Shown: in pieces, positions 3,001-41,869 of the stretch | Layout of the letters: each line of letters starts with the position of its first letter | Numbering within the stretch: position 1 is the first letter of the stretch | IMG/VR virus record: IMGVR_UViG_3300045922_001038 | Span: 1-64,000 of that record | Length of the DNA: 64,000 nt | Reading direction: 5' to 3' (one strand) | Origin: a virus | The notes under the pieces: generated by a model | Databases searched by the model: none | The model's input: only the letters and a program-made list of their open reading frames with translations | What the model was told of the DNA's origin: nothing | Program-made: the position numbers and the translations under genes

Positions 3001-5001
3001 TCGACTTACCAAACCTAGTTCGTTAAGTACTTTTTCAAAACGTTGATTGTCTAACCGTACTGTATTTTTTGGAAAATCAAAGGAATCAAAACGAGCAGTA
3101 CTTTCATTGAATGTACCTTTAATCACCACTAACTCCAATGAATCTACCCTAAACCCATTTGAAGCTAGGATGGCTTGGTAAGTAGCAAGTTGAAGATTGT
3201 ACTTGCTTTTGTCGTGATTTTCAAGATCGGAGTGTACGCCTCGCAAATATCGAGGTCCATTTTTTGGAGGGGTAGAAAATGGGTCTTTTAATTTGTGCGT
3301 CTTTACTTTGAAGTCGAGTATTTTGGCTTCGCTTGTAGTAGGGTTTACAACCAACAAGTCGATGGTACCGGCTACATTTTCTTTGCCTAACGTCTCAGGG
3401 AATACAGTTAATTCATTGACAATTAACGTAAACCCATCTTTTTTAAGCTCTTCAAAGAATTCGTATAGGTATTCATAAGCGTCTTCTACTTGTTGGTCAG
3501 TCATGAAGGCACCGTAACGCTTCACATTGGCCAAGACTTCCTGTTTGTATTTCACCTCCTCAGGGGTAGTCGCAGGCAAATGGGCAAACGTTTGGAACGA
3601 TTTAACCTTGGTGAGTACTCCCTGCTTTGATTCGCCGTTCCCTACCAACTCCGCTATGTAGTGGAATACGGTCCCGGTGTCGCGTTTCGCAGCCCATTGG
3701 TCAAGCGTTACTTCCTTTGGCACGCCCGTAACCAATTCGATTTGTTGCGCAACCGCTTCCGCATCAAACGGGTACAGGTAGCGGTCTTGGTTGAAAGCCG
3801 TGATGCGGGTAAACGTAACGTTGGGATTGCTCTTAAGCCGGTACCTAGATTGCTTGAGGTTGGTGTCGTAGTAACGCTCAATCATTCGCTGCTGCATCTT
3901 GAGGTCGTCGATTTGGTCTTGCACCGACTTTTGGTAGTACACCGACCCAATCGGCAGCCTTTCAAACGGGGTGATGGTACCCGAAACCAACTGGCGCGCC
4001 AATTCCTTGATGGGGTCGCGCGTTACGCCAAAGAGTTCCGCCAAGGCGTCCAGTATGCGGTTGATGAAGATTTTGATCTTTGTGCTGTTCAAAAGCTCTT
4101 CGTGCTCGACTTGGGCTTTTGCCCCCAGCGCGGTTACCAGCACTTCCATCTCAAGGGTGCGCGCATCCGCCTCCGGGTAAGCCATGACTACGCGATCCCA
4201 AAGTTCGGTCCCTTTCAGGCTTTCTATCGCCTTGCGCACTAGGGGGTTGTCATACCCAAGCAACTCAACCAGGATGTGGCCGAATTCGTGGTACAGGGTG
4301 TCTTGCTTCAACCGGGTAGGGTGTATCTTGATTTCCGCTTTGCTGGCGGAGACAAAGCGCACTTCCCCGCTGCCCGTTATCCCCATGTCTTCGGTAACCG
4401 TTACTTTTATCCCCGCCTTTGCGAAGGCTTCCGTCAGGAACTTAGCCTTGCGTTGCTCGGTCGAGTTGTAGTTTATGGGGTAAGTGTCTTTGGTCGTAAA
4501 GGCAGACGGGACTTTGACGTTGATGTTTCCGTCAAACGTAACCTCCTTGATGTCGTTTGGATTGGTTACCAGTGCGTACCTAACACCGCCCACTATCCCG
4601 ACGGTGTTTTGTGGGTTGTCTTTTGTGACCCTCACGAAATACGGCAGGTCCCCCGGTTTTGCGGGCTTTTCCGAAAACAAAAACCTACGTGGGTAATCGG
4701 TTTGGATTTTCTTTGACAGTTCGTTTTGGACGGTAGAGTTGTGTACCCAATACATAGGCAATGGCTCTCCCAACTCATTGCGAACCAAGCTAATGCGTGC
4801 CTTTAAGTAGGAATCTTCGACCCCTTGCGCCCTCAGGTTCACGTCCTCTTCCCAGTTTCCAAACCAAGCCGCAAAGTCAGGCCCCTTGGCTTGTCGAAAC
4901 ACTTTGTATGCGGTTACCCTGTCCTTGAAAACAGTTTCCAGTTCGTCGAACAAAAGCGACGGAGAGTTGTTAGTTTGTGGTACTAGAACGCACGTAGCCA
5001 T
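1..5001 (-). CDS. Giant virion (cargo) protein with zincin and PD-(D/E)XK nuclease-like domains, partial
   Basis: The frame is open from the ATG at 4999-5001 to the left window edge, giving at least 1,667 residues with the C-terminus missing. It begins 3 bp after the stop of the 3,704-aa gene, so the two are co-transcribed. At about residues 236-242 there is a YHEFGHIL zincin motif (HExxH metalloprotease). At about residues 535-610 a GTIDLLVVN strand, an ILDFKVK strand and a NLQLATYQ helix form the D...DxK...QxxxY pattern of RecB/Cas4-type PD-(D/E)XK nucleases. The rest is mostly charged and helical. Crass-like phages carry two or three giant proteins ejected with the DNA, and combined protease and nuclease modules are typical of them. 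Proteolytic maturation of cargo and attack on host DNA are inferences. The start is supported by the tight spacing. The family placement is solid, the activities are not shown. Confidence 0.85.
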   Translation of the reverse strand, partial: MATCVLVPQTNNSPSLLFDELETVFKDRVTAYKVFRQAKGPDFAAWFGNWEEDVNLRAQGVEDSYLKARISLVRNELGEPLPMYWVHNSTVQNELSKKIQTDYPRRFLFSEKPAKPGDLPYFVRVTKDNPQNTVGIVGGVRYALVTNPNDIKEVTFDGNINVKVPSAFTTKDTYPINYNSTEQRKAKFLTEAFAKAGIKVTVTEDMGITGSGEVRFVSASKAEIKIHPTRLKQDTLYHEFGHILVELLGYDNPLVRKAIESLKGTELWDRVVMAYPEADARTLEMEVLVTALGAKAQVEHEELLNSTKIKIFINRILDALAELFGVTRDPIKELARQLVSGTITPFERLPIGSVYYQKSVQDQIDDLKMQQRMIERYYDTNLKQSRYRLKSNPNVTFTRITAFNQDRYLYPFDAEAVAQQIELVTGVPKEVTLDQWAAKRDTGTVFHYIAELVGNGESKQGVLTKVKSFQTFAHLPATTPEEVKYKQEVLANVKRYGAFMTDQQVEDAYEYLYEFFEELKKDGFTLIVNELTVFPETLGKENVAGTIDLLVVNPTTSEAKILDFKVKTHKLKDPFSTPPKNGPRYLRGVHSDLENHDKSKYNLQLATYQAILASNGFRVDSLELVVIKGTFNESTARFDSFDFPKNTVRLDNQRFEKVLNELGLVSRVPQKSRSTYQRVPDYRVNTSAINDLVKSITDALKVRLEQYNVRGDIYATKDKLMNLIWTMENTPYYDGFVTYIKSLLGVENKRQVVVNGVKAYEWQDLGEIERLEQYLSRAPQQFVLNGTLRTPTYLRGKTYEDQMSFIQSAYNTIAIWEKLVSPVLTANDFANIIGADGTPLFTAKEAQENADKFNQLTSHVKLKIKDLKNKLAIVYEDLTMQKLAEYAGNPEIKGLLSDILPDGTTKSESQKNEDLKKLHQIFFGPQFDSNWLQKVTIAAHHSNIPLLSLFIKRFDFELGRARHEAYEFNRNLTEIIKQVKAEGHSIMQLFETDSMGKRTGRFIQRDDNIEWVTEYLARKKAYLKGLKELTELEKPNKDDFSSDIEFDKAFENYKEKKADIVLNSITPYNKFMWETVELSGAGQQIYDSFTQFEDENGVRRRSLPQYIKYPTWKSAYRLEAYTTNGIQDNPLFGFKIKPKEKLISEYKKYSHKANPKFAQQIPPGSALEQLYEQIEKLTHVSLTYYTLRDETLVNLGYVPAIYQDQTDIDKAIATIRGVPTQVKKLLSKDIMEKLRDLVNPKEEIIPVSVDELGNVINMVPFYYLGNSGIEIDTTKIPNTDDDFVTALYKYAEAAHEHRAKVTLEPEALLTIHHFKQMQLRKGPINRRGVVFVNKKTNQPLYTTGDASNAMSQFSNWFAINFYREMSAKNQDKVAVKVSAALQNYMSYVTLAFNFTSATTDTLGGHLTRLVEATGNRYLKKAYLAGGLRATAEVVFAGEYNNDGMWKPKSKTKLGALLKQYKIVEDTLEKSPNQGGMLKNQKYGRFIGALNKNLLFVAENVGEFLTQGSLLYAMLRSTPVKNSKGEEITLWDAYSLQDGYLVLEKGVTDLKGNPIRTDPNAISNFELAIERRTIALNQKMQGNYRDETRVLAQRYWFGSLLMQFRKYLVPLWVERYGSRGHLLYGSDIFYDEFSEEYDRGRAFAFREMMMELLQKIKGKNDRYVQDIL

Positions 5002-5004
5002 AGG

Positions 5005-8000
5005 TTAGATGCAAATATCAGCGTCGTTGCTAGCTGACATAGGTAAGTGGTTGTCGTTTTCTGGGTTGAACAGTTGCATCCATTTGTGCAACAATGTAGA
5101 ATCGTTTTCAAAGGTAATGTTTAGCTGCTTAGTTTCGAAACCAGACGTAAAGTTTTCAGCTTTAGTGATTCCCAGTTGGTTCATAATACCAAGAAGAGAA
5201 CGAACATAGCTTTTACCTCCGTACTTAAAACCGTGGTTTTCAAATTCATACAGAATAGCTTCTTCCAAAAAGTACGCCAAGTTCAAGTCTTTGTTGGCTT
5301 CCGCTTCGTGGTACAACCGGGTTGCCGCGTAATACGCTGCGTCCCGGTCATCCCGACTAGCCCGTGGGTTTCCTTCCACCGTAGGAACTGTTTGGTTCCT
5401 CTCTTCGTTTGCACTCGCTTTATTGCCGAATATAAGGTAGTTAAAGAAGTCATTACCTTGATATTCAGGACGTTGTTTGTAATACCTTAGCTTAGTTACG
5501 AAAGGTAAATTTATCCATTCTTCATGTTCATAATAATCTTTTATGAGAGTTATTAACGCGTCTTCAGGCTCTCGTTTGGCGTAAGTATCAATCGATAGAT
5601 ATTGGAAACTACCTCGTAATACTTGTATCATTTGTTCCTTAAACTTGGAAGGAGCAACTTGGTGTTTAAGAACAAAGAATGGCGAAAGTGCTTTTTCCAT
5701 TGTACTATAAATGTTCAAGATATTTTTTAACATCAAAGCAACAGCAGGAATTTTTTCTTGTGTTTCAATAAGCTTTTTACCTAAGTTGTTTTCTTCATGT
5801 TCTGGTTCTATAATATTGTCAAGCATACGAGTAACTTTATTAGTACTCCTAAAACCATCATAGTCTAATGCATCTAGTTTCATTATTAGTACTAAATTCT
5901 TTTGCCAGTACGTAAACATATCAAAAATATGACCAACAATTACTGCTGCTCGTGTACACTCACGAAGTTCATCTACGCTTAAATCAAAGTAATGTTTGTT
6001 TTCAGCCCTGATCTGTTTTAGAGCTTCCACATTAAATTGCAATCCATTCGGGTGATCGTCTTCTACCTCTTTGTGGGGTGGAATTGTGTTTTTCCAAGTA
6101 AAAGAAGGATCACGTAAATCCCACCGTTCGCCTAACAACTTGCTTCCCATAGAAGAAGTCGCTATTGAACGGTCTGGCTTAAACCTAGACTTAAACTCGT
6201 CTGTAATTAAAGCTGCATAATTATGGAGTGTAATTGGTTTGTCTGAAGTTTCTATTAACAACTTCAACAATTCAGGAAAATTTGGTTTTTCTGAGGTTTT
6301 TAAATCTCGGTCATATTTTTTCCTTTTTTCACTTGCTATATCTTCTTGTTCAGTTTCAGTCAATGCACCAAGATCAATATCCAAAAAATTGCTCTTTTCA
6401 ACCGCCAACATCACTTGCGTGTATTGGTTTACCATAGGAGAGCCTAGCAACGCCAAGGTTTCGTCCAATGTGAAAGCACCTGACGAAATCATGAACATCC
6501 CAAGCGGGACCGTAATTGTGTTCCCTCCCCATATGGTAATCTGGGGGTCTTTGCTCATGTCCAACACCGCCGCCACGAACTCTTTCAAAGAGTCTATGAT
6601 CAACCCTTGGTTTTTGTCGTGTTTTACGTATTTGTTGTCGTAACTCCAGTTTACGCGCGTCCCTTCCCGTGACGTTAAGTTCAGGTTCAACGCCTGTGCT
6701 ATCCCAAACGTAGACAGTATGTTCGCGGCTATGCCGATCAGTTTTTTGCCTTGAGCCCCGTCTTCCAACAATTGAGTGTTCAAGTTGACGGGGTGCGCTT
6801 TTTTGGCGGACTGCGACAGCCCCTTGTTGTACTCCTTCATCTTGTTGAAAGACGAAGTCGAGTGCGTTTCGTCGAAATGGTTGGGCGCCCCGAACAGGGT
6901 GAGGTAAAAATCCAGCAGCTGGTTGTGCCGCTGTTTTTCGGCCAAGCGCCGGCCCTTGTTTGTGTTGGCCAACGACGTAGTGGTCATGGACGAGGGGATC
7001 GCGTACACTTTCCCGTTCTTGTTCACTAGGTTACGGGTGTGCGTGTACAATTTGTCTACGTCAAAGTCCATGCCCGTCTGGGTGATGATTTCGTCCGCCA
7101 CCACTATAGACGGCCCGTAAGCAGGGCCAAGTATCCCCACGGGCTTGACGATGAACGTCGAGTACTTCCCTTCGTTTGGCAGGCGGAACGCTATGTGGAG
7201 CAGGTCGTCCTTGTTGGTGATGTGCTTAAACGCAATTAGCGATTTGTTACGTCGGTACAAGGCGGAACTAAACGCAGGAACCAAAGCCTCGACTATGTAA
7301 ATGTCGTTTCCATCAGCTGTGGTATGGAGTTTTGCCCATCCGAGCTTGGGGGTTTCTTTCTTCGCGGAATACTTGTCCCGGTGGTGGAAAATGGCCACTT
7401 GGCCGTCTTTTGACGCCAACTCCACGTAGTCGTTCTCCGCCATAAGTTTGGCAAACTCCCGCTCCCCTACATTGTACTCCCGGTTACGGGACGACGGCCC
7501 ATCCGCGATGAAATCCGCCCGCGCCTCTATGGCCTTCATCAGCTCCTCTTTATACACCGGGGCCCGGCCTGCCGTGTTTCCGTTTACCGAAACGAACACC
7601 ATGTCGGTGGCTTCGTATTGGCCAACGTTCGCTTTCCCTATCGCTTTCCACGCGTCCAAATACAGTTTGGAGGACTTGACCGACTTGGGGTGGATGATCG
7701 CCTTGTTTGCCTTCGACGATTTCCTTTGGTCTTTGCTTGCGTAAGGGTTCGGGTTGACCTTGGTAAGGTCAATCTCGTTCTTGTTGGACAAGTCCGGACC
7801 GGCAGGCTTCCATTTAGCCAGCCACTCAGGGTCAAGGCTTACGTCCTGCTTGTGCGAAAGCCCGTCGTTGCGGAAGTCCTTTGGGTCGATGTCAAACCCT
7901 ATGGAAGACACTGCCACCGCCGAATACCCCGGGGTACGGAGGTCTATGCCTTTGCGCTGCACCAAAGACGACAGGAACGCCTCGGGACGGTCGCCAAAAG

Positions 8001-11000
8001 CCGGGAAATCAAAGAACGCCCCGCTGTACAACGATTCCTCCACGGACCTGTCGATGGCTTTTTTCCTTAGCTCGCTCTCCAGGTAGTCCATCAACTTGTC
8101 TACGTCGATCCGGTCCCCTTCTTCTGTAAACAGTTCTTTTTTAAGGACTTCCAAGTTGTCTTGGTACATACTAGCCAACAGCATGTGGTAAGCCTCTTGC
8201 AGCTCTTCCCCCTGCATCACGGTAGGTTTCCCGTTGACGTTCACTTTGTAATGCGCTTCCGCGTCCAAGTTCGCAATCGCCACCTTGCGGAGCTGCGCGG
8301 ACAACTTGTTGGTTTCGTTCTCCACTTCGGACGGAACTGTCATCTGCACCCCCCAGTACTTCATTGAGGTGGGGAAAGACCTTATGTTCCGTTGGTCTTC
8401 GGGGAGCAGCTTTCCCTCTTTGTCAAACAGCGTGGAGTAAGTGCCCCACCCAAACTTGGCGGCGGAAGACGGCATGATTATGTCGACGGGCTTGTCCCCG
8501 TCCATCAAGTTGGCCAATTCGTTGCGGGTTTTGAACGAATGCAGCTGCGGCCAGATGATGCTCATCGACAGTTTTGCATTCCGGAGGTACGAGTCCTGCC
8601 TTGACGGGTTGTACTTTTGCTCTACGTAAAACGGTTTGATGGGGGTAAAAAATCCAAGCTTGTTGAGTTGGTACAACTCTTTCGGGGTCAGCTCTTTGCC
8701 GTTGAACAATTTGTACACAGGATTGTTGGGACTGTCCCAAGACCTTTCCCACCTGCCTTGGTTGCGAAGGAACCGTTCCAAAAACCTCGGCGTAACCCAT
8801 ACCTGCGCGTCTGCCGCGTTGATGGTATCCCCCGGCTTGCCGAGCCCCTTTTCGATGGCATCCTTGGACATTTCAAGCTCTATGTCCTGTATCAGGATGG
8901 TGTTAACGGTATCGTGCTCGTTTATGCCTTTTTGCGTAGGGGATACAATCGTTTTCGCACGCTTGTTTTTGTCTATAAGGGATTTGTACTGACTGGTATG
9001 GCCTAGCGTGAGCGTGTCCAAAGTGCGGCGGTACACAAATTGGTGGTACCTAAACTCCAAACGGATCAGCCTGTAAACCAAGCTTTTGGGTATCTGGTTA
9101 TACTCAAACGTTGGAGTGTACAGCCCAAGCCGTTTGAAAAGCTCCTCCATGTCGTTCGTGTCCACGGAAGCCCCAGTCTCGACCAAAAACTCCTTGGCTG
9201 CGTTTTCAAACACTACGTCCCAGTTGACGTCTTCCCGGTAGGTCCCGTTTACAACCTCCAACTGCTGTATAGAAGGCAAATGCTCATAAGTAACAAACTT
9301 CAAATTGTTGCCGGCACGTACTTTGTTGTTGGCAACGTCTATCTTGAAATCGCGATGCTCGATCAGCAAATCGTCATCGCGGTTCATTTTTTGCCTATAA
9401 GCAATGTTTATACGTGCTATGTTGTCTAAAGCAGTTTTGATGTCCCCCGAAAACTCCCCGTAGTTTACGGTTCCCCCGGGCCCGGTTTCAAACAAATCGG
9501 GAATCACCAGCCCAACGTTTTTGGGGCTTCCCACGTGGAGCATTTTGTAAATGCGCAACTGCTGGCTGATCCGGGCTTTCTCGTACTGGAGGTCCTTTAT
9601 GACCTCGTTTTTGAAAAGCTCGACACCGTCTTTCAGTTGGTCCTGCACCTCCTTGAGCAGCAGGTGTTTTTTGGTAGACAGTTCAGCGACGGAAACGATG
9701 CCATTCAGCCGGGGAACGTTAAACACCCAATAAGAAGGGCTGTCCGCATGCGCTTGAGTGGTGATGCGAACGCTGTTGTTTTTACCCCCACGGTAAAACA
9801 AGGTAATTTCGTACTTGTCGTATTCATCCTTGAACAACAGCGAACTGATTTTGCGCCCAGTTGGACGCTTCCCAAAGGAAGGCCCAAGCTGTTTAATCCC
9901 GTCGATCGGGTTTAACGACACTTGGTTTTGCTCAAGCAGTTCATAGTTTACATACCAACTTCCATCGGGGCTGTACTTTACCAGCTGTTCAAAAAACGCG
10001 TCGTGGTAGTAAGGGGACGCTTTGTTGCCCGCACGGACAGCCGCCACGTGCCTCGACGCCAACAAGCGTATGGCTTCCATTTTGCTGTCGTCGATTTTGT
10101 CGAACAACTTGGCAAGGTCGCTAAGGTAGTTTGAAACGGCAGCTGCATAGTACGGCTCCCCGTCCACGTTCTTTTCTTGGTTGCTCTTGAACAAGTTTGC
10201 AAACGGTATGAAAGGCTGTATGGCAGCCGGCAAACGTCCTGTCTGCTTTGTAAGCAACAACTTGATGTACAGCGCTTTGTCCTCACGGATTTGTTCCGGG
10301 GTCATGGTTGCATACGCTTCCCGGTAGGCGGCGTTGCGGCCAGAGTACCCTTTGGCCATGTAGAATTCTGTCGTGGTAAAGCTTAGCGTAGACCCCACAA
10401 ACGTCTTTAAGTATTCAACGGCAGCTTCGCGTTTTTGCTCCTCCGTAATCGAAGGCATTTGGTTTTTACTGAAATGTAAATCCAAAGCCTTCCGAGTGAG
10501 GTTGTGGTAAACAAAATTGCCATTGTCGTCAACGCCTTGGATTTTCAAAGCCAACCCAGTTTCAGTGATAAACTTGGTGATGGCGTCCAGAAGCTTCTCG
10601 TATGGCAACTGGTATATAGCTGCATAGTTCAAGGGCTTGCGGATTCCCAAGATGTAATCTAGACCGAAGCTGTCTAAATTGCTTTGTATGGTGTTGTAAA
10701 TGTATTGGACACTTTCATTTGAAAATTTGCTGCTTCCCGTGTAAATGCGCGAAGGCGATACAAACACTACGATCTTTTTCTGTAGTTGTTTGTCAAAGAA
10801 GTACACAAACTTGTCCCGTAGGATGGAGTTGTCGTCCAAAGTTGCGACCAACTCCAAAAACCCGGGCCGCACCTGCCCCAGCGCCTGCAATTGCCGGCGC
10901 ATGTCATCCCACGTAACCAAACCGATCAACGTAGATTCCAGCGTGGCGTACGCATCCTCGAAATTCAGATAGGAAACGCTGTCTTTGGGGTAGTAGGTGG

Positions 11001-14000
11001 TTGGTACGTATACTGCGTCAGCCGGAGACAGCGAGCTAGTCAGCATCTTTTCAGGGAGCAGCTTGATTAACCGTTTGAGGTCTTTGCTCATCGACCTCGT
11101 CAAGGACAGCTTGTCAAACGCCCCGTCCCAATCTTTTTCCATTTCGTCGTCGTTCACCAAAAAGTCTTCCAGGTTTTCGACGTTAAACCGGGTAAGCACC
11201 TCTTGGAACGAGCGGTCGAACGGGTTCATGTACCCCAAGTTGCGGGCCCTGGTATAAGATCCCAACACAGCCTCCAACTGGGATGCCAAATCAGGGTTTG
11301 ACCCTTTGACCTCTAAGTACTTTTTATACAGCGAATTCCAGACCAACGCCTGCACCACTTGCTCTATGTAGGGACGCGATGGGCCTTGCTCTTCGGTTTC
11401 AGCCTCCAGCTCTTGTTTTACCACCTCTTGCCACACTTCGCTGGCCTCTTCCACTGGCGCGTCTTCCCTTTCATCGTCGTCGGAAGTTTGGCTGTCCACA
11501 ATTTCAGGGGAGGTGAGGTCTGAAAAGGGGGACGCCAAAAACTGCATCGTTTGGCCTATGTTGGATATTTCCAACGCAGGCTTGTTCAAAGCCAGCTGAG
11601 GGTCCTGCACGGACTCCCTGTTTTTCTGGTATTCCAACAGCAGCTTACGCAGTTGGTTGTAAGCCGCCAGCCCGGCATCCGTAACGCTCCCTTCCCGGGC
11701 AGTGTTTATCAGGTGGGTGTAGTATACGATCTGGTCCGAAGTCTCCCGGATGAATTGGGTGTCTTGTTTGGGGGTCAACCCTTCGATTAGCTTGGGGGCG
11801 GACGAACTGGCGTGCTTTGCATAAAACGAGTCCATCCGATCCGTTCGCTTCAAAGAAGGAACCGCGTTAGACAACCCACTAAACAACAATGGAATGGAAT
11901 CATAGTCTGGGTTCAGCACTACGTCCCGTATCCAAGCGATCAGCTTTTCGAAAAACCGCAACAATTGCTTGAACAAGCCTGCGCTTTGGCGCGTGGCTTC
12001 GTACTCCTCGAACAAGTCGGCCAAGTACTCTTCCACCTCTTGGTCCGTCGAATTGACCAAGTTGTATTGCTTGCGGGCTTGGGCAATCAACCGCTTGTAG
12101 GTAGCCTCGGGGAGGCTCATCCGCATGACCACGTGGAACGCTTCGTGGTACGTGGTTTTGTCCGGGGCCCCTTTGTACACTTGGACCGCCCCGTCCTTGA
12201 ACAACCCCCAAGCAGCTTGCCCACCGTACGAAAGCACGTTTTCGACCACCTCAAACGGCACGTTCGGGAACCGGTTGGTCCACCAACGGATTGCCCTTTT
12301 CCGGTTGATGGGCTTCATCGAATGGGTGGGCATCTCTTTCGTGCCTAGGCTGGGCTCGACGACTGGGCTCTGCGCCCCATCCGTTGCAGGCGACTGCACC
12401 TTAATTTCTTCCGTGGTTTGTCGTTGCGCTGCCGTTGGCGGCGGAGTGGGTTGCGCTGAAGTTTCGTAAACGGGCTTGAAGTTGGTGATGTGTATCCCAA
12501 AACTGATGGTATGAGTAACCGGCAATGTGCTGGCTTCCCCCACAAGCCGTTCAAGGGGAAAGTTTTGCGGAAGCTTGATCCCGCCTGTGATCGCTGAATA
12601 GTTCAACTCAGCCAACGCTTCCAAAGTCAGTGGCTTGCCTTGCAGGTCTTCGTATATGACCAATGTCTTCGAACCGTCCGGGGCGACTAGGTATGCGTAA
12701 GCCTCGTTTCTTATGCCGGACTTGGCACGCATCGCCCGAAACGTCGCGGACTTTACACCAAACAACAGGTTGGGGTCGCTTGCGTGCTGTACACGGCCAC
12801 CGGTAGGCTCGATGTCGGAAGTCCCTACCAATGCCTTGTCGTCCGTAACGGGGACCACTTTGTAACCTAAGTCGTCTAAGTCGTAGGCCAAAAGCAGCTG
12901 GCGTATCGTAATGGGCTGGTCTATGGGACCGCCAACCAACGAAACAGGCAACAGTACGTCGCTGTGGGTCAATTTGCGGGTCAGCTTGGCTACGCCGGGC
13001 TTAAAATGCTTTCCGATTTCCGAATGCTGGGGGGTTCCCACTTTGTACACCAAGACCTGTTTCTTGTTCTTGTGGGACCAGCTCACTAGAAAATCACCGT
13101 TTTCGTCTTTGGTGATGGTTACCGTTTTTCCAGGGGTAAGCGTCTGAAGTTTTCGCAGCGTGCTTACGATTTCCTGGGTAAGTTTTGTAACCGCCAACGT
13201 AGGATACACTTGGTTGAAGTTGGTATCGTTGTTGGTGAAATGCCAGGACGGAATCGATATAGGCACAAACGGGACGGTGGTTTCCGTCGACGGCTGTTGT
13301 TGGGTATGCGACTCAGGCGTAGTTGGTGCCACCTGCGGGGGCAATGCAGGCTTGGGATCTTCAACCGGTTGTGTTTGAACAACATCCGTTGGTACAGGTT
13401 CGTTTTCTATGGCCTCTTCGTCAAGGGCCACACTTTCCACCGGGGCTTCTGCCTCAACCGAGGGGTTGCTTTCTGCCTGACCAAGGGTAGATTGGGCTTG
13501 CGCTTCGGCGAATTGGGACGCTTGTGCAGTCTCGTCCAAAGGAGGAACTGCAGATTGTGCTTGTTCTTGTGCTTGGGCCTGTTGTTGTGCTTTTTGCTCC
13601 TTTATTTTTTGATCGACTTCTTTTTTGGTATCGTTAATGAAATCCAAAAAGTTTCGAGGAGTTAAGTTGCGTATGGCGTCGTTTAATGATTCGAGAATGG
13701 TTTTAGTGTGGAACTGAGTGGCAAGAGCGATTACAAAATCGCTTCTGTTTCCTTGCAATATACCGTCCACAAATTGGTCCAACACCCGTTGTTTAGCTTT
13801 GGCTTTTTCCAAAGCCTCCACTTTTGCAGCTAAGTGTTCTTTTACTTGGTCTCTAGGAGGTTTGCTTTCGTATTCATTTAGATCGTTTTCTAATTTTTGT
13901 ATGTTTTGTTTGGCTTCTTTAACGGCTTCTTCAAGCGAAGCTAATTGTTTTGTGAGAGCTTCAACCTGAGCTTTGTAATGTGGGGTTACATATTTGTCTT

Positions 14001-16119
14001 GGAATTTACGGGACAATTCATGTTGCGTATCGTTTGGAGCTTCAAGAGCAGTTAAGTCATCTAACAATAACTGCTGTGCAAAGCTTTTTGCAAATAACTG
14101 AACTTCAGGGCTATCTAAAACCTCGCTTGGTATGCTACTGTCTTGACGTGCTTTTTCAAGCAACTTTTGGTTGCGGTCTAAATACATCTGCATAGCCGAA
14201 CGTTTAGTATGCAGGTTATATTTAGTGCTTATGTAAGCCGTCCGCAATTCAGGGTTTGGAATCCGATTACCCTCAAGCTTGGCTTCTCGCGTTATTTTTT
14301 CAGCGGTGTTTATTTCCCTGGTTAAGTGAGTGCGTAGTTTTTTAAGTTCGTCTTCAATGATAGAAAGCAGTTTTGGTGCAGTTGTGTTTGGGGAAACAGG
14401 GGTGTTTGTGGAAGTGGGAGTGGGAGTATTTAGAAAGGTCGAAATAGTTGGTGAAACCGGCGGTGTCGAAGTACTTGGGGAAACTTGAGTATTCAGTGAA
14501 ACTGGTGTGTTTTCACTAGGCGCGGTACCCGATTGTTGCGCCAGTATCAACCTAGAAACGTTGTCAAAATCAGACGACGCGATAAAACGTTTGATAAATG
14601 GCAGGTTGTTGTTTTCAATCGCCAACCCAGCAATTGCATACGAGTGGGTCGCTTTTAACGTGTCCAACGCCAAATCGCGTTGTTCAGTTGACAGGTTTGG
14701 ATTGTTGACGATGTCATTTACATCTTTCCAGTATTGCTCCGTCAATTCTTGCTGCTTTTTTAGCCGGGTCAAATAACTACGGGTCGCTTCTTCCCTCTGG
14801 TCGGCTTCTTGCTGAAAACGGGCTGGATGTGATACTGCATCCCGTATGGCAGGCGCTCCAAAAGCGATGCCTCCCAACAGCCCGCCGACAAACGATTCAA
14901 CCGACGATTCCCCGCCAAAGTTGTCGAAAAACGAAGCGTCGCTTTTCCCTTTTGTGGCCAGTTGGTAGGCGTGCAACGCCCCTGTCTGCTGGGCGGCGTT
15001 GTTGACCAACTCTTCGATGCCTTCGCTGAATGGGCCCAGCGTTGCCTCGCGTATCGAGGTAAGCCGCATGGATTTCGCCAGTTGCTTGCGCGCGTCTGAC
15101 AAGGAACCTGCAAAAAGGTGGTCGCTTACGTCTTGGCCGGTCCTGAACCGTTTATGGGCAGCGTCCACTACGTCGTCCAGCAACCCGTCCCCCGTACGGC
15201 CAAAACGGCGGACCAAGGTCCCCATCTGGAGTATGTCGAACAACAGGTTCGAATAGTTCAGCTGGTATGCCTTGACAGCCCCTTCGCCTGCGAGGTATTC
15301 TACCAAAGCTTCGTCCGTTACGGGGATACCGTCCGCTATGAGCTCTTGCCCAATGCGTTGGCGAGCTTCAGGGGAGATCAAGGAAGGATTTGCAGTGAGC
15401 TGCTTTTTGATGTCTTGGTACAAATTGGAAGCTTCCATGTAGGCTTCCATATGGCGCATGGCAATGCCGGACGTGGTTTGCTGTCCAACCAGCTGTACAA
15501 CCGGGTTTGTAGCCACCCGCCCAAGCACCTGACCGACTTGCGTAAGCTGCCGCGCACGTGCAATTGCGGTAACGCCAGCCCCAAGCAACCCAATGCCTTT
15601 GGCCACGGCCGTGCCCGGCACCAAAAACCCCAAGCCAGAACCAACGGCAGACGGGGCAATGCGGAACAAGTCGGTGGCTTCGAATTGATAGGGGTCAATG
15701 TCATAAATCGGGTTGGTTTGGCGGTCGATTTCCGCCAAGGACCTGCTGGTACGGCTAAAAATGTCATTCCCCGCAACTACCGGTTCGGAGTCGAACAACG
15801 AATAGACCGGCCCAGCCACGGCGCCTACGCTTCCGTATATCGTTGACGCAAAAGTATTTGCAGTTTTTACCAAACCCCTTCCAAGCGTTTCCAGCAACCC
15901 CTGTGCCTTGTACCTTTCCCTGTAAGCCTGCTCAGGGGACGTAAAAACTGGGTATTCATATCGTTCATTTGGCATCTGGCGGTACGAAACATCCCCCGGA
16001 AGTGTCGTCGACTGCGTCGTGATGTCAAACCAAGCGGGAGGCGTATTGGCTCCTTGACGGGGAGGCTTCAATACATCGATAGGGGAAGGCGGCGTTTGGT
16101 TTTGGTTGATCGGTAGCAT
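5005..16119 (-). CDS. Giant virion RNA polymerase (crAss-like, single-chain two-barrel type) fused to a zincin domain
   Basis: This is one uninterrupted frame of 3,704 residues. At about residues 3017-3021 it has DFDVD inside a TGMDFDVDKLY context, matching the DxDxD metal-binding loop of the crAss-like virion RNA polymerase (phi14:2 gp66 type), a single-chain relative of two-barrel cellular and YonO-like polymerases. In those phages the enzyme is injected and transcribes early genes. The N-terminal 200 residues contain a glycine-rich hydrophobic stretch. At about 530-590 there is a low-complexity Thr/Pro/Ser linker, then coiled coil (about 590-830) and a Gln/Glu/Pro-rich linker (about 860-970). 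A zincin motif HEAFHVV lies near 1323. It sits between two other cargo genes with 3-6 bp gaps, as expected for a co-packaged set. No frameshift occurs in 11.1 kb, which speaks for good sequence accuracy. Confidence 0.88.
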   Translation of the reverse strand: MLPINQNQTPPSPIDVLKPPRQGANTPPAWFDITTQSTTLPGDVSYRQMPNERYEYPVFTSPEQAYRERYKAQGLLETLGRGLVKTANTFASTIYGSVGAVAGPVYSLFDSEPVVAGNDIFSRTSRSLAEIDRQTNPIYDIDPYQFEATDLFRIAPSAVGSGLGFLVPGTAVAKGIGLLGAGVTAIARARQLTQVGQVLGRVATNPVVQLVGQQTTSGIAMRHMEAYMEASNLYQDIKKQLTANPSLISPEARQRIGQELIADGIPVTDEALVEYLAGEGAVKAYQLNYSNLLFDILQMGTLVRRFGRTGDGLLDDVVDAAHKRFRTGQDVSDHLFAGSLSDARKQLAKSMRLTSIREATLGPFSEGIEELVNNAAQQTGALHAYQLATKGKSDASFFDNFGGESSVESFVGGLLGGIAFGAPAIRDAVSHPARFQQEADQREEATRSYLTRLKKQQELTEQYWKDVNDIVNNPNLSTEQRDLALDTLKATHSYAIAGLAIENNNLPFIKRFIASSDFDNVSRLILAQQSGTAPSENTPVSLNTQVSPSTSTPPVSPTISTFLNTPTPTSTNTPVSPNTTAPKLLSIIEDELKKLRTHLTREINTAEKITREAKLEGNRIPNPELRTAYISTKYNLHTKRSAMQMYLDRNQKLLEKARQDSSIPSEVLDSPEVQLFAKSFAQQLLLDDLTALEAPNDTQHELSRKFQDKYVTPHYKAQVEALTKQLASLEEAVKEAKQNIQKLENDLNEYESKPPRDQVKEHLAAKVEALEKAKAKQRVLDQFVDGILQGNRSDFVIALATQFHTKTILESLNDAIRNLTPRNFLDFINDTKKEVDQKIKEQKAQQQAQAQEQAQSAVPPLDETAQASQFAEAQAQSTLGQAESNPSVEAEAPVESVALDEEAIENEPVPTDVVQTQPVEDPKPALPPQVAPTTPESHTQQQPSTETTVPFVPISIPSWHFTNNDTNFNQVYPTLAVTKLTQEIVSTLRKLQTLTPGKTVTITKDENGDFLVSWSHKNKKQVLVYKVGTPQHSEIGKHFKPGVAKLTRKLTHSDVLLPVSLVGGPIDQPITIRQLLLAYDLDDLGYKVVPVTDDKALVGTSDIEPTGGRVQHASDPNLLFGVKSATFRAMRAKSGIRNEAYAYLVAPDGSKTLVIYEDLQGKPLTLEALAELNYSAITGGIKLPQNFPLERLVGEASTLPVTHTISFGIHITNFKPVYETSAQPTPPPTAAQRQTTEEIKVQSPATDGAQSPVVEPSLGTKEMPTHSMKPINRKRAIRWWTNRFPNVPFEVVENVLSYGGQAAWGLFKDGAVQVYKGAPDKTTYHEAFHVVMRMSLPEATYKRLIAQARKQYNLVNSTDQEVEEYLADLFEEYEATRQSAGLFKQLLRFFEKLIAWIRDVVLNPDYDSIPLLFSGLSNAVPSLKRTDRMDSFYAKHASSSAPKLIEGLTPKQDTQFIRETSDQIVYYTHLINTAREGSVTDAGLAAYNQLRKLLLEYQKNRESVQDPQLALNKPALEISNIGQTMQFLASPFSDLTSPEIVDSQTSDDDEREDAPVEEASEVWQEVVKQELEAETEEQGPSRPYIEQVVQALVWNSLYKKYLEVKGSNPDLASQLEAVLGSYTRARNLGYMNPFDRSFQEVLTRFNVENLEDFLVNDDEMEKDWDGAFDKLSLTRSMSKDLKRLIKLLPEKMLTSSLSPADAVYVPTTYYPKDSVSYLNFEDAYATLESTLIGLVTWDDMRRQLQALGQVRPGFLELVATLDDNSILRDKFVYFFDKQLQKKIVVFVSPSRIYTGSSKFSNESVQYIYNTIQSNLDSFGLDYILGIRKPLNYAAIYQLPYEKLLDAITKFITETGLALKIQGVDDNGNFVYHNLTRKALDLHFSKNQMPSITEEQKREAAVEYLKTFVGSTLSFTTTEFYMAKGYSGRNAAYREAYATMTPEQIREDKALYIKLLLTKQTGRLPAAIQPFIPFANLFKSNQEKNVDGEPYYAAAVSNYLSDLAKLFDKIDDSKMEAIRLLASRHVAAVRAGNKASPYYHDAFFEQLVKYSPDGSWYVNYELLEQNQVSLNPIDGIKQLGPSFGKRPTGRKISSLLFKDEYDKYEITLFYRGGKNNSVRITTQAHADSPSYWVFNVPRLNGIVSVAELSTKKHLLLKEVQDQLKDGVELFKNEVIKDLQYEKARISQQLRIYKMLHVGSPKNVGLVIPDLFETGPGGTVNYGEFSGDIKTALDNIARINIAYRQKMNRDDDLLIEHRDFKIDVANNKVRAGNNLKFVTYEHLPSIQQLEVVNGTYREDVNWDVVFENAAKEFLVETGASVDTNDMEELFKRLGLYTPTFEYNQIPKSLVYRLIRLEFRYHQFVYRRTLDTLTLGHTSQYKSLIDKNKRAKTIVSPTQKGINEHDTVNTILIQDIELEMSKDAIEKGLGKPGDTINAADAQVWVTPRFLERFLRNQGRWERSWDSPNNPVYKLFNGKELTPKELYQLNKLGFFTPIKPFYVEQKYNPSRQDSYLRNAKLSMSIIWPQLHSFKTRNELANLMDGDKPVDIIMPSSAAKFGWGTYSTLFDKEGKLLPEDQRNIRSFPTSMKYWGVQMTVPSEVENETNKLSAQLRKVAIANLDAEAHYKVNVNGKPTVMQGEELQEAYHMLLASMYQDNLEVLKKELFTEEGDRIDVDKLMDYLESELRKKAIDRSVEESLYSGAFFDFPAFGDRPEAFLSSLVQRKGIDLRTPGYSAVAVSSIGFDIDPKDFRNDGLSHKQDVSLDPEWLAKWKPAGPDLSNKNEIDLTKVNPNPYASKDQRKSSKANKAIIHPKSVKSSKLYLDAWKAIGKANVGQYEATDMVFVSVNGNTAGRAPVYKEELMKAIEARADFIADGPSSRNREYNVGEREFAKLMAENDYVELASKDGQVAIFHHRDKYSAKKETPKLGWAKLHTTADGNDIYIVEALVPAFSSALYRRNKSLIAFKHITNKDDLLHIAFRLPNEGKYSTFIVKPVGILGPAYGPSIVVADEIITQTGMDFDVDKLYTHTRNLVNKNGKVYAIPSSMTTTSLANTNKGRRLAEKQRHNQLLDFYLTLFGAPNHFDETHSTSSFNKMKEYNKGLSQSAKKAHPVNLNTQLLEDGAQGKKLIGIAANILSTFGIAQALNLNLTSREGTRVNWSYDNKYVKHDKNQGLIIDSLKEFVAAVLDMSKDPQITIWGGNTITVPLGMFMISSGAFTLDETLALLGSPMVNQYTQVMLAVEKSNFLDIDLGALTETEQEDIASEKRKKYDRDLKTSEKPNFPELLKLLIETSDKPITLHNYAALITDEFKSRFKPDRSIATSSMGSKLLGERWDLRDPSFTWKNTIPPHKEVEDDHPNGLQFNVEALKQIRAENKHYFDLSVDELRECTRAAVIVGHIFDMFTYWQKNLVLIMKLDALDYDGFRSTNKVTRMLDNIIEPEHEENNLGKKLIETQEKIPAVALMLKNILNIYSTMEKALSPFFVLKHQVAPSKFKEQMIQVLRGSFQYLSIDTYAKREPEDALITLIKDYYEHEEWINLPFVTKLRYYKQRPEYQGNDFFNYLIFGNKASANEERNQTVPTVEGNPRASRDDRDAAYYAATRLYHEAEANKDLNLAYFLEEAILYEFENHGFKYGGKSYVRSLLGIMNQLGITKAENFTSGFETKQLNITFENDSTLLHKWMQLFNPENDNHLPMSASNDADICI

Positions 16120-39879: not shown

Positions 39880-40097
39880 TTTAGCGTAAATATCAATAGA
39901 TTTTGTGTTATACCGTACTATTTGTAGTTATGACTTGGGTAAAATTTATCGGACTGGAAAATTTGGGGATTAAAAATTGCGCGTGTGAATGAACTGGTAC
40001 CCCCTATACCGTAGTCCCCCCTATACCCGCCGATTTCACCCACCCCCCCGTACCCAAACCCTCACGCCTTGTTTTCCAAAGTGGGCGTAGCCATCAT
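39880..40097. promoter_or_regulatory. Divergent control region between virion and accessory blocks
   Basis: The 218-bp gap separates the minus-strand late operon from the plus-strand cassette island. The left half is AT-rich, suited to promoters, and the right half is C-rich. Two copies of CCTATACC lie at 40003-40010 and 40020-40027, and similar elements recur in the island, so this may be a phage promoter element. At the right end, CACGCC (40063) pairs with GGCGTG (40114), and a 10-bp stem (40076-40085 with 40101-40110) lies inside that pairing. No gene is seen. Confidence 0.5.
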
Positions 40098-40141
40098 TTC
40101 CCCACTTTGGACTGGCGTGCGAACAAATGCACGCACAAGAT
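40098..40141 (+). promoter_or_regulatory. Cassette leader L0
   Basis: The leader has TTCC at 40098, then CCACTT, nine bases ending TGGC, GTG, and a small stem (GCGTGC with GCACGC) before the ATG at 40142. The TTCC-to-ATG distance is 44 nt, the same as in the other cassette leaders, and this is why I choose 40142 rather than the upstream ATG at 40127. Confidence 0.65.
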
Positions 40142-40549
40142 ATGAAACAGGATAATAAACGCGGGTTGAGCCGAAAGGCTCAACGCCGTGAACTTCGGCG
40201 AGCTCTAAGGCTCGCCGAAGCAGCGCTCTTGGCCGAAGAAGAGGCCAGGAGCGCGAAATCACAATATGTCTGGGGCTTCTCCCAGGCAGAAATGCAGCTC
40301 CGAGAGGAGCTGCTCTGGAACCCGGAATACCTGGGTTCCGATGACTTCTGGTCGCTCGTAGAAGCGGCCACTGAAAGCCTCCTCCAACAGTCGGTGGAGG
40401 CTGAGGAGTCGGCCTACGAGGCCGAAGCTGAACTGAAAGCCCAACTGGCGCACATGCGCCAGTTGGGGACGAAATTGATGTACGATGCTCGCTCTGTAGA
40501 CTTCGACTACAGGGCAAAGAAGTTCCGCATCACAAGTTCGTACTTGTGA
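40142..40549 (+). CDS. Hairpin-coded island protein 1, 135 aa (unknown)
   Basis: The protein is charged and helical (RKAQRRELRRALRLAEAAL, VEAEESAYEAEAELKAQ) with an aromatic patch (YVWGFSQAEM, DDFWSLVEAATESLL). The chosen ATG sits 44 nt after the leader TTCC, and the upstream ATG at 40127 lies inside the leader stem. The stop codon is inside the last 13-bp hairpin. Almost the whole coding sequence folds into consecutive hairpins, and those arms constrain the codons, so repeated residue patterns (AE, RR, LA) may partly be by-products of structure. It could instead be a structured RNA with an incidental reading frame. The open frame of 135 codons, the leader and the terminator favour a translated gene. 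No family is recognised. Confidence 0.6.
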   Translation: MKQDNKRGLSRKAQRRELRRALRLAEAALLAEEEARSAKSQYVWGFSQAEMQLREELLWNPEYLGSDDFWSLVEAATESLLQQSVEAEESAYEAEAELKAQLAHMRQLGTKLMYDARSVDFDYRAKKFRITSSYL

Positions 40550-40558
40550 TGCGGGGGG

Positions 40559-40602
40559 GGGAGTGGTACGGTTCACAACGTACCACTCCCTGTTTTTTCT
40601 TT
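40559..40602 (+). terminator. Strong Rho-independent terminator
   Basis: A perfect 12-bp stem (40559-40570 with 40579-40590), an 8-nt loop and TGTTTTTTCTTT close the first cassette. The G run at 40553-40561 links it directly to the preceding 13-bp hairpin. Confidence 0.9.
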
Positions 40603-40907
40603 CTCGGTCCTATACAGATCAGTTGGGCCCCGGACTTGGTGCCTTACTATATCGGTTTCTCGGGCGGTCCTATATCCGCGTTATGCCTTGCTCCTTCCTT
40701 ATAGTTGACGGGCAAACGCGTTGCGAAGCGTGGCGTGCGCCTGGGCAATTAACGCAGTGGGGGCACGGCCAGGCCGTTTTGGGGACTCGTGGGAATGGCC
40801 GGGTATATAGGTTACTTAGGCCCTTTTTCCACCCGACGAAGGTTGCTTGCCCCGATGCGAGGAGCGCTCCTCTACCTCCCCCTCGGGGGCGTTCGCGAAA
40901 AGGTGCG
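40603..40907. other. Non-coding GC-rich stretch
   Basis: I see no credible gene here. CGGTCCTATA occurs twice, at 40605 and 40665, exactly 60 bp apart. A 14-bp perfect palindrome (GAGGAGCGCTCCTC) lies at 40859-40872. The N-terminal helix-turn-helix part of the IS30 transposase that follows is expected here but is not recognisable. Confidence 0.5.
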
Positions 40908-41479
40908 ATGCGAAAAGCGCTGATCGATTGCCTTCGGCAACAACGCCCGAAGCGGAGGAAGAGAGGCGGGCCCCCTGACAAACGCCCGGGCATCGTGACG
41001 ATACACGAAAGGCCGTCGGAAGTGGCCGTCCCTGGGCATTGGGAGGGTGATTTGATCGTGGGTAAAGACCACCAGGGCGCAGTGATCACCCTCGTTGAGC
41101 GCGCCAGCCGCTTCCTTCTGATGACGCCTATACCTGACCGCCACTTTCGACGCCGCGCTTAGAAAGCTCGTCAGGCGGCTCCCGAAAGAAATGGCGAAGT
41201 CAATCACCTACGACAGGGGAAAGGAAATGTCTAACCACCAGTCGTTTACCATCGATACCAAGATTGCCGTCTACTTCTGCGACCCCGTGGCAGCGGGGCA
41301 CAAACGAGAACACCAACGGCCTCATTCGTGACTTCTTCCCAAAGGGTACAGATTTTAGGCAGGTTAGCTATCGGAAACTGGCACGTGTGCAGTCACTTTT
41401 AAACGACCGCCCACGCGAGACTCTTGGCTTCGAAACCCCCCGGAACACGTTTTCCAGCTTCATTAAAAAACCTTCTTAA
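40908..41479 (+). pseudogene. Decayed IS30-family transposase
   Basis: Three frames together reconstruct the DDE catalytic domain of an IS30 transposase. Frame 1 (to 41162) has IHERPSEVAVPGHWEGDLIV then GKDHQGAVITLVERASRFLL. Frame 2 (about 41133-41330) continues FDAALRKLVRRLPKEMAKSI, TYDRGKEM and YFCDP. Frame 3 (to 41479) has WQRGTNENTNGLIRDFFPKG and the C-terminal DRPRETLGFETP. The catalytic D, D and E motifs are all traceable, but a first frameshift occurs near 41140 and a second near 41285, where about 8 nt seem to be missing before WQRGTNENTN. The N-terminal DNA-binding part is absent and I see no terminal inverted repeats. The element cannot be active, and it separates the first cassette from the next. 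Confidence 0.85.
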
Positions 41480-41545
41480 AATTATTCCGTTTTTGCGTTA
41501 ACAACTTGAAACCACCAAACGTAAGCACCCGGCCTTTTTCTTCGT

Positions 41546-41587: not shown

Positions 41588-41869
41588 ATGACGTTACGAA
41601 AGACAGAGCAAAACACCATGGCCTACGTGAGGGCCATTTCGTATGCTCGTTACGAAGCGTACTTGCTTCACCGCGAGCTGGAGAGGGAAACCGACGAAGT
41701 TTCCCAAATTCTCTTGCGCATAAAGCGCAACGAGATGCTGGCCGCGGCCAAGGAGCTGGACGCGCAGTTCAAGGCGCGGCTGGAAGAGCTCCGCGCACGC
41801 GGCAAACGGTGGGCCCAGCTCGCCGACCAACTACAGCGGGAATACCACCGCTGGAACGCAACGAACTGA
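41588..41869 (+). CDS. Island protein 2, 93 aa, helical coiled-coil-like
   Basis: This is a helical, charged protein (YEAYLLHRELERETDEVSQI, KRNEMLAAAKELDAQF, RLEELRARGKRWAQLADQL) that looks like a long amphipathic coiled coil. The start is set by leader L1. The coding sequence is dense in short hairpins: 41618-41623/41632-41637, 41638-41643/41651-41656, 41685-41691/41699-41705, 41714-41719/41725-41730 and 41791-41795/41798-41802. No family is recognised. A regulatory or adaptor protein is possible. Confidence 0.65.
   Translation: MTLRKTEQNTMAYVRAISYARYEAYLLHRELERETDEVSQILLRIKRNEMLAAAKELDAQFKARLEELRARGKRWAQLADQLQREYHRWNATN

Follow-up and report, generated by a model that had tools for sequence, protein, structure and literature searches.

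A gene-length array of short hairpins in a coding gene divergent from the terminase operon of a crAss-like phage

Structured coding sequences and structured phage RNAs have been described in several systems. In RNA viruses, genome-scale ordered RNA structure (GORS) is characterized by poorly conserved pairings and more variable unpaired sites, with a folding-energy excess of roughly 8-11%, and shielding from recognition was proposed as its role (PMC7642675, PMC3950689). Template switching, also termed quasipalindrome correction, can create and maintain stems (PMC8794818; see also PMC8604942), and in yeast such events were observed only when transcription was high (PMC3820800). The cabRNA of staphylococcal phages, a structured RNA of about 400 nt that originates from terminase genes, binds and activates the CBASS cyclase (PMC10686824). 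In phage T4, the autogenous control of gp32 uses one pseudoknot and a less structured operator in the leader (PMC535899). The locus described here, found in a 64,000-nucleotide stretch of viral DNA (the window), resembles cabRNA as a structured phage RNA of about 400 nt near terminase genes, but it is a separate gene with generic hairpins, whereas cabRNA derives from terS/terL and has a specific active hairpin. It resembles T4 gp32 in that a phage mRNA's own secondary structure matters for its fate, but in this case it is the coding region that folds, and no relation between the window protein and single-strand-binding proteins (SSB) was detected. The first-pass annotation knew of no phage element of this form, and likewise none was found in the open-access literature.

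The record is a 71.6-kb viral contig carrying crAss-like terminase, portal and major head genes, which matched PHROG families at 1.8e-135, 7e-97 and 1e-72, respectively. Its TerL is about 36% identical to those of Crassvirales records, and its terminase, portal and major head protein place it in the Crassvirales. The array gene is the first gene divergent from the terminase operon (Table 1). Just upstream of it lie C-tract repeats of CCCCCTATACC, a motif with five matches at up to one mismatch in the window versus 1.4 expected, three of the five falling within 40000-40054; the repeats are a possible promoter or operator. A sigma-70-type promoter gave no match, and the window contains no tRNA, tmRNA or Rfam RNA, with no Rfam match at or above the gathering score. 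Several neighboring features were also recorded. A second small helical-protein gene at 41588-41869 (+), for which the homolog search was empty, folds beyond its synonymous shuffles (z -5.8), more weakly than the array gene. Putative remnants of an IS30-type transposase, split into several frames, lie at 40700-41480 (+) in both the window and the L002 contig described below. On the minus strand, 5005-16119 encodes a 3704-aa protein without a PHROG match, which by its size and place is possibly a virion RNA polymerase.

Upon folding with RNAfold, 40063-40602 reached -294.6 kcal/mol versus -188.7±7.3 in 100 dinucleotide shuffles (z -14.4), none of which was as good; this energy excess of about 56% is the strongest folding signal among 798 windows across the 64 kb, and the claim that hairpins are far denser here than by chance was thus borne out. 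Folded as DNA, the same segment gave a z of -12.1. A strict Watson-Crick-seeded search identified 11 hairpins with arms of 7-13 bp, or about 15 when local minimum-free-energy (MFE) helices were included, and the seeded stems held only two interior mismatches, one G-T and one T-T. The arms vary in sequence, length and loop and have no motif in common; as the first-pass annotation had noted, they are not copies of one another. Nevertheless, the first-pass annotation needed amending in several respects. Almost every base lies in a hairpin only if loops are counted, because about 58% of the coding bases are paired (local MFE); the 135-codon frame is open over 40142-40549, with its likely ATG at 40142, whereas 40063-40141 is a noncoding leader; and the proposed rod-like structure is instead a row of local hairpins. 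The placement of the stop codon inside a 13-bp hairpin, with a 12-bp T-tailed terminator afterwards, was correct. A specially open start window was also considered and rejected: the start is open, but no more so than in ordinary genes.

When protein and codon usage were held fixed, synonymous-codon shuffles of the gene gave -146.3±6.1 versus -221.3 kcal/mol observed (z -12.4), and free synonymous choice with matched third-position GC gave a z of -8.8. Neither the dinucleotide shuffles, the control that the first-pass annotation had proposed, nor the synonymous ones reached the observed energy. Since synonymous shuffles lose the folding, the hairpins are not explained by the amino-acid sequence, and the anticipated folding constraint apart from the protein was upheld. 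Hairpin density was then scanned over 868 ORFs (760 kb, the record plus related phages). On average, perfect stems took up a fraction of 0.029 of an ORF's bases (99th percentile 0.139), versus 0.33 in the window gene and 0.44 in its L002 counterpart. The density runs from leader to terminator and drops in the flanking genes, and in both the 64-kb and the ORF scans the array is essentially restricted to one gene. An artefact of base composition, of helix-rich codons (Leu CTC/Glu GAG, Ala GCC/Gly GGC) or of assembly is extremely improbable: the Ala, Glu, Leu and Arg codons of the window protein are capable of pairing, but the effect was removed by synonymous and codon-order shuffles, the array also occurs in L002, a separate metagenome contig, and arrays are present in the AT-rich loci L018 and L050, which encode a different protein.

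Table 1. Coordinates of the array, its surroundings and related loci (window positions unless a locus is named)
Feature	Position	Strand	Evidence or remark
C-tract repeats CCCCCTATACC, two exact and one with a mismatch	40000..40054	+	motif count
Leader hairpin, 11 bp perfect, 15-nt loop	40075..40111	+	
Leader hairpin GCGTGC/GCACGC, 8-nt loop	40115..40134	+	holds alternative ATG 40127
Coding gene, 135 aa, likely ATG 40142	40142..40549	+	open frame, synonymous shuffle, L002 homolog
Hypervariable coding part, folding kept	40145..40437	+	76% DNA identity to L002
Hairpin 1, GTTGAGCC-GAAA-GGCTCAAC	40165..40184	+	outward extension CGCGG/CCG
Hairpin 2, 11 bp	40193..40220	+	
Hairpin 3, 12 pairs including one T-G	40223..40254	+	
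Hairpin 4, about 7-8 bp around CTGGG/CCCAG	40268..40289	+	
Hairpin 5, GCAGCTCC-GAGA-GGAGCTGC	40294..40313	+	
Hairpin 6, GGAACCC/GGGTTCC	40317..40339	+	
Hairpin 7, core GGTCGCT/AGCGGCC, one T-G	40347..40373	+	
Hairpin 8, 9 pairs, one T-T mismatch	40376..40402	+	
Hairpin 9, TCGGCCT-ACG-AGGCCGA	40409..40425	+	
Near-constant 3' coding part	40438..40549	+	105/112 identical to L002
Hairpin 10, 12-13 bp perfect	40440..40467	+	L002 divergence stops at left edge
Hairpin 11, GCTCTGTAG/CTACAGGGC	40491..40515	+	
Hairpin 12, 13 bp perfect	40525..40554	+	contains stop TGA 40547-40549
Terminator, 12-bp perfect hairpin then T run	40559..40590	+	
L018 array gene	L018 185-514	-	synonymous-shuffle z -6.7
L050 array gene	L050 2160-2471	-	synonymous-shuffle z -7.6 to -9.2
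About 2-kb gap	L042 10883-13029		
About 2-kb gap	L044 8707-10626		
About 2-kb gap	L045 18220-20381		
About 2-kb gap	L041 32137-34617		
About 2-kb gap	L038 41535-43559		

L002, a 7.2-kb viral contig, carries the counterpart of the array gene in a nearly identical phage. The flanks are 99.4% (2466/2480) and 98.7% (739/749) identical, whereas only 224 of the first 296 nt of the gene are (76%); the divergence begins directly after the ATG and stops at the edge of the hairpin at 40440-40467. Both indels, of 3 and 6 nt, preserve the frame, and a dN of 0.17 with a dS of 0.45 gave a dN/dS of about 0.38. The L002 gene folds as strongly as the window gene, at -225 kcal/mol over aligned codons (synonymous-shuffle z -10.6), versus -142±9.7 expected from equally many random substitutions and -191±7.3 kcal/mol from permuting synonymous codons at the changed sites. 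Of the 85 window pairs, 74 are still paired in L002 (64.1±1.9 expected), and six pairs are compensatory (1.8±1.1 expected, p 0.001), although these statistics are only suggestive and are no phylogenetic test, because pairs were treated as independent and two sequences were compared. The compensation that the first-pass annotation had proposed to look for in homologs was thus found. Substitution rates are 0.18 in stems and 0.33 in loops. The collections searched contained only these two alleles of the window gene. Hairpin 3 has 14 pairs in L002, with two pairs altered on both sides; hairpins 6-8 are rearranged, and hairpin 6 is replaced by an unrelated 8-bp hairpin, CGCGTCCC-GGGT-GGGACGCG. In hairpin 11, three clustered changes give a perfect 12-bp complement, CTCGCTCTGTAG/CTACAGAGCGAG: within the near-constant 3' part, three of four clustered differences right of its loop complete the arm complementarity of L002, a change that fits what template switching would produce.

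This last change bears directly on the main rival explanation, mutational drive, which we consider unlikely. On this view, template switching struck repeatedly at a fast-diverging locus with strong transcription and left the arrays behind as a by-product; every event turned one arm into the exact complement of the other, and the folding would need no function. Beyond the exact right-arm complement of hairpin 11, the near-perfect Watson-Crick, strand-symmetric arms, the different hairpin positions between homologs and the ability of template switching to create and maintain stems (PMC8794818) speak for it. As in such events, perfect inverted-repeat arms may have been made or repaired here, coding sequence included. 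However, the published cases concern individual hairpins (PMC8794818, PMC8604942, PMC3820800), whereas a gene-length array was kept here through about 24% divergence. A single templated copying step from window sequence does not yield hairpin 6 of L002, and arrays are missing from some same-slot homologs. Substitutions are half as frequent at stem sites as at loop sites, suggesting constraint, and the array is limited, among hundreds of ORFs, to one gene with its leader and terminator; this constraint and the confinement to one transcript argue against mutational drive.

Two further observations were made around the L002 array. L002 has about 120 nt of extra sequence upstream of it (L002 about 4790-4930 versus window 40063-40075), which closes with a hairpin, GGGGGGTACG...CGTACCACCCC, similar to the terminator of the array itself; this segment may have been lost from the window between CACGCCT and CACCCCT. 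A third contig of nearly the same phage, L005, stops just before the array (its position 1 corresponds to window position about 39979), as if assembly broke at the variable region.

Sequence composition was next considered for signatures of RNA or DNA. Of the sense-strand pairs, 7.6% are G-U in the window gene and 5.1, 3.9 and 5.4% in the other three array genes, versus 14-19% in four control genes. Folding of the antisense strand is nearly as strong as that of the sense strand, and stronger in L018 and L050. With so few G-U pairs and such similar folding of the two strands, the sequence bears no RNA-specific signature. The wobble pairs that had been taken as such a signature are in fact rarer than in ordinary genes, and the GNRA-like loops offered alongside them are two of about 15, with no recurring loop motif. 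Low G-U content and strand symmetry fit recent or continuing template-switch arm repair or a DNA-level role as well as they fit selection on RNA. A DNA-level role, in which the hairpins work in single-stranded or cruciform DNA, is nonetheless improbable. N4-type virion RNA polymerase uses DNA hairpin sites, and such sites, single-strand-binding protein sites or substrates for gene-diversifying recombination would be examples. In addition to the strand symmetry, the rare wobble and the folding as DNA (z -12.1), this reading draws on the bounds of the L002 divergence at the ATG and a hairpin edge. Furthermore, single-strand DNA-binding proteins were the best, though weak, Foldseek matches of the L018-family protein model (E about 0.02, TM about 0.3). 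In VIA-align, however, SSB chains scored Z 2.1-2.5, below sliding clamps at 3.4; arms and loops have no common motif and vary in length; and the limits of the array are a leader and a terminator, which suits RNA.

The array was found to recur in the same slot of other phages. A terminase-gene search gave 32 loci, among them L018, whose terminase is 37% identical to that of the window; the L018 operon then led to L050, in which the operon was recognized through homologs of L018 genes, the L050 terminase lying outside the locus examined. In the window, L018 and L050 alike, the array gene is the first gene divergent from the operon leading to terminase. L018 and L050 are AT-rich and code for a protein unlike that of the window, yet still show arrays. 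Their own proteins are homologous, at 30% identity, without a PHROG or PDB sequence match, and their hairpins do not clearly co-map (0.46-0.50 paired versus 0.27-0.47 in slid controls). A stem fraction of at least 0.2 was reached by 3 of 15 slot genes versus about 3 of 853 other ORFs (Fisher p 8e-5), the three array slot genes being not fully independent cases because L018 and L050 are homologous. L008, L030 and L014 have homologs that retain the protein but lack an array (z -0.8 to -1.7), indicating that the array is dispensable in the L018/L050 family. No comparable array was found in the slot genes of seven annotated crAss-like or related genomes; mild folding excess was seen in cr1_1 gp40 (z -4.6) and FpV4 gp75 (z -3.1). 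The array genes are built alike: a leader hairpin precedes a fairly open start, the array comes next, and the final coding hairpin includes the stop codon, which in L050 sits in the loop. In the window and L018, a clear terminator hairpin lies behind it. Homologs of the L018/L050 family also have part of the leader in common: a conserved segment resembling GTGTGGCAGGTCAAAAAAACACCCCCGACTnATGAnCACAC occurs at about 515-575 in L018, at about 2472-2540 in L050 and upstream of the L030 slot gene, and with potential GTGTG/CACAC and AGGTC/GACCT pairs it is a possible structured leader. Upstream of the L050 array gene, CCCCCCATA is present twice, which is not beyond chance.

The wider slot region had features of its own. 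On the genome side beginning with the slot gene, Rfam hatchet and hammerhead ribozymes and RAGATH RNAs occur in three Crassvirales genomes (L042 20290-25130, L041 23548-26032 and L038 31229-31305). Five annotated Crassvirales genomes have, in a similar place, a gap of about 2 kb in which no gene is annotated, and cr4_1 gp94 (L042 13030-13452, -), which adjoins one such gap, exceeds synonymous-shuffle folding (z -7.5).

It is well supported that the window gene codes for a protein. The 135-aa product, MKQDNKRGLSRK...ITSSYL, is rich in Ala, Glu, Leu and Arg. Pfam and PHROG gave no family for it, the best matches (E 0.04 and 0.08) falling short of the cut-offs. It had no homologs beyond L002 in viral contigs, GTDB genomes, phage or plasmid records, and showed no detectable relation to the L018 family by hhalign. 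Its AlphaFold model, two long helices and a beta hairpin at low confidence (pLDDT 68), gave nothing better than E 0.4 in Foldseek. Between the two readings left by the first-pass annotation, a structured mRNA with a real frame is favored over an RNA with an incidental one, given the in-frame indels, a dN/dS of about 0.38 and the retention of the protein in array-less homologs of L018/L050. Extreme folding, and the precedent of cabRNA for structured phage RNA near terminase genes that matters to defence (PMC10686824), could also point to an RNA as the main product, serving as a structured decoy, as a sponge or in packaging, while the small protein would be secondary or incidental. Given the same evidence on frame and protein, together with the lack of a conserved fold, a repeated ligand loop motif or an Rfam match, we regard this as quite improbable.

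Relatives keep or rebuild hairpins at the same slot with different letters, indicating that folding itself is acted on besides the protein; that pairing density is maintained or regenerated independently of the encoded protein is well supported. On comparison of the sequences, it is the density of pairing that is kept, not one particular fold. As in GORS, consecutive stem-loops run throughout the coding sequence with an energy excess over shuffles (z -14.4), pairs are poorly conserved (L018 versus L050, and hairpins 6-8 of L002) and paired sites are less variable (0.18 versus 0.33). Unlike GORS, which spans whole genomes of positive-strand RNA viruses, the array occupies one gene of a DNA phage, its excess is about 56% rather than 8-11%, and its stems are almost perfectly Watson-Crick. 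The window array therefore works like GORS yet is no member of that class, being neither genome-wide nor from an RNA virus.

Our preferred explanation, held tentatively and at somewhat less than an even chance, is, by analogy with GORS, that gene-scale ordered RNA structure shields the mRNA, its arms being partly made or repaired by template switching. The transcript would be kept as an almost unbroken series of short local hairpins running from leader to terminator and, as the gene diverges, arms would be replaced, shifted or rebuilt while the frame stays open. Few accessible single-stranded stretches would remain outside the ribosome-loading window, which would confer resistance to single-strand-specific endonucleases; an mRNA shielded in this way would also resist RNA-guided nucleases and host-defence RNA sensors and decay slowly. 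Template switching between arms would supply and repair the perfect stems. Against shielding, G-U pairs of 4-8% and near-equal antisense folding are unlike the prediction for selection on RNA alone, and arrays are absent in the L008, L030 and L014 homologs. A further proposal, that some crAss-like phages armour the mRNA of one fast-evolving gene with generic hairpins throughout its coding sequence, as a protein-independent counter-defence that is gained and lost between relatives and whose arms undergo templated repair, is rather doubtful.

Pervasive RNA structure in coding regions is already known from RNA viruses, and no description from a DNA phage was found in the open-access literature. 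If the folding is selected, a DNA phage would use a property of persistent RNA viruses, several times stronger and confined to one gene, whose locus is found again in distant phages, and the folding of coding sequence as a protection of phage mRNA from RNA-targeting defences would become directly testable. If the array is instead mutational, it would record template switching in a virus over the length of a gene, and would show that a functional protein gene can take up palindromes and stay intact.
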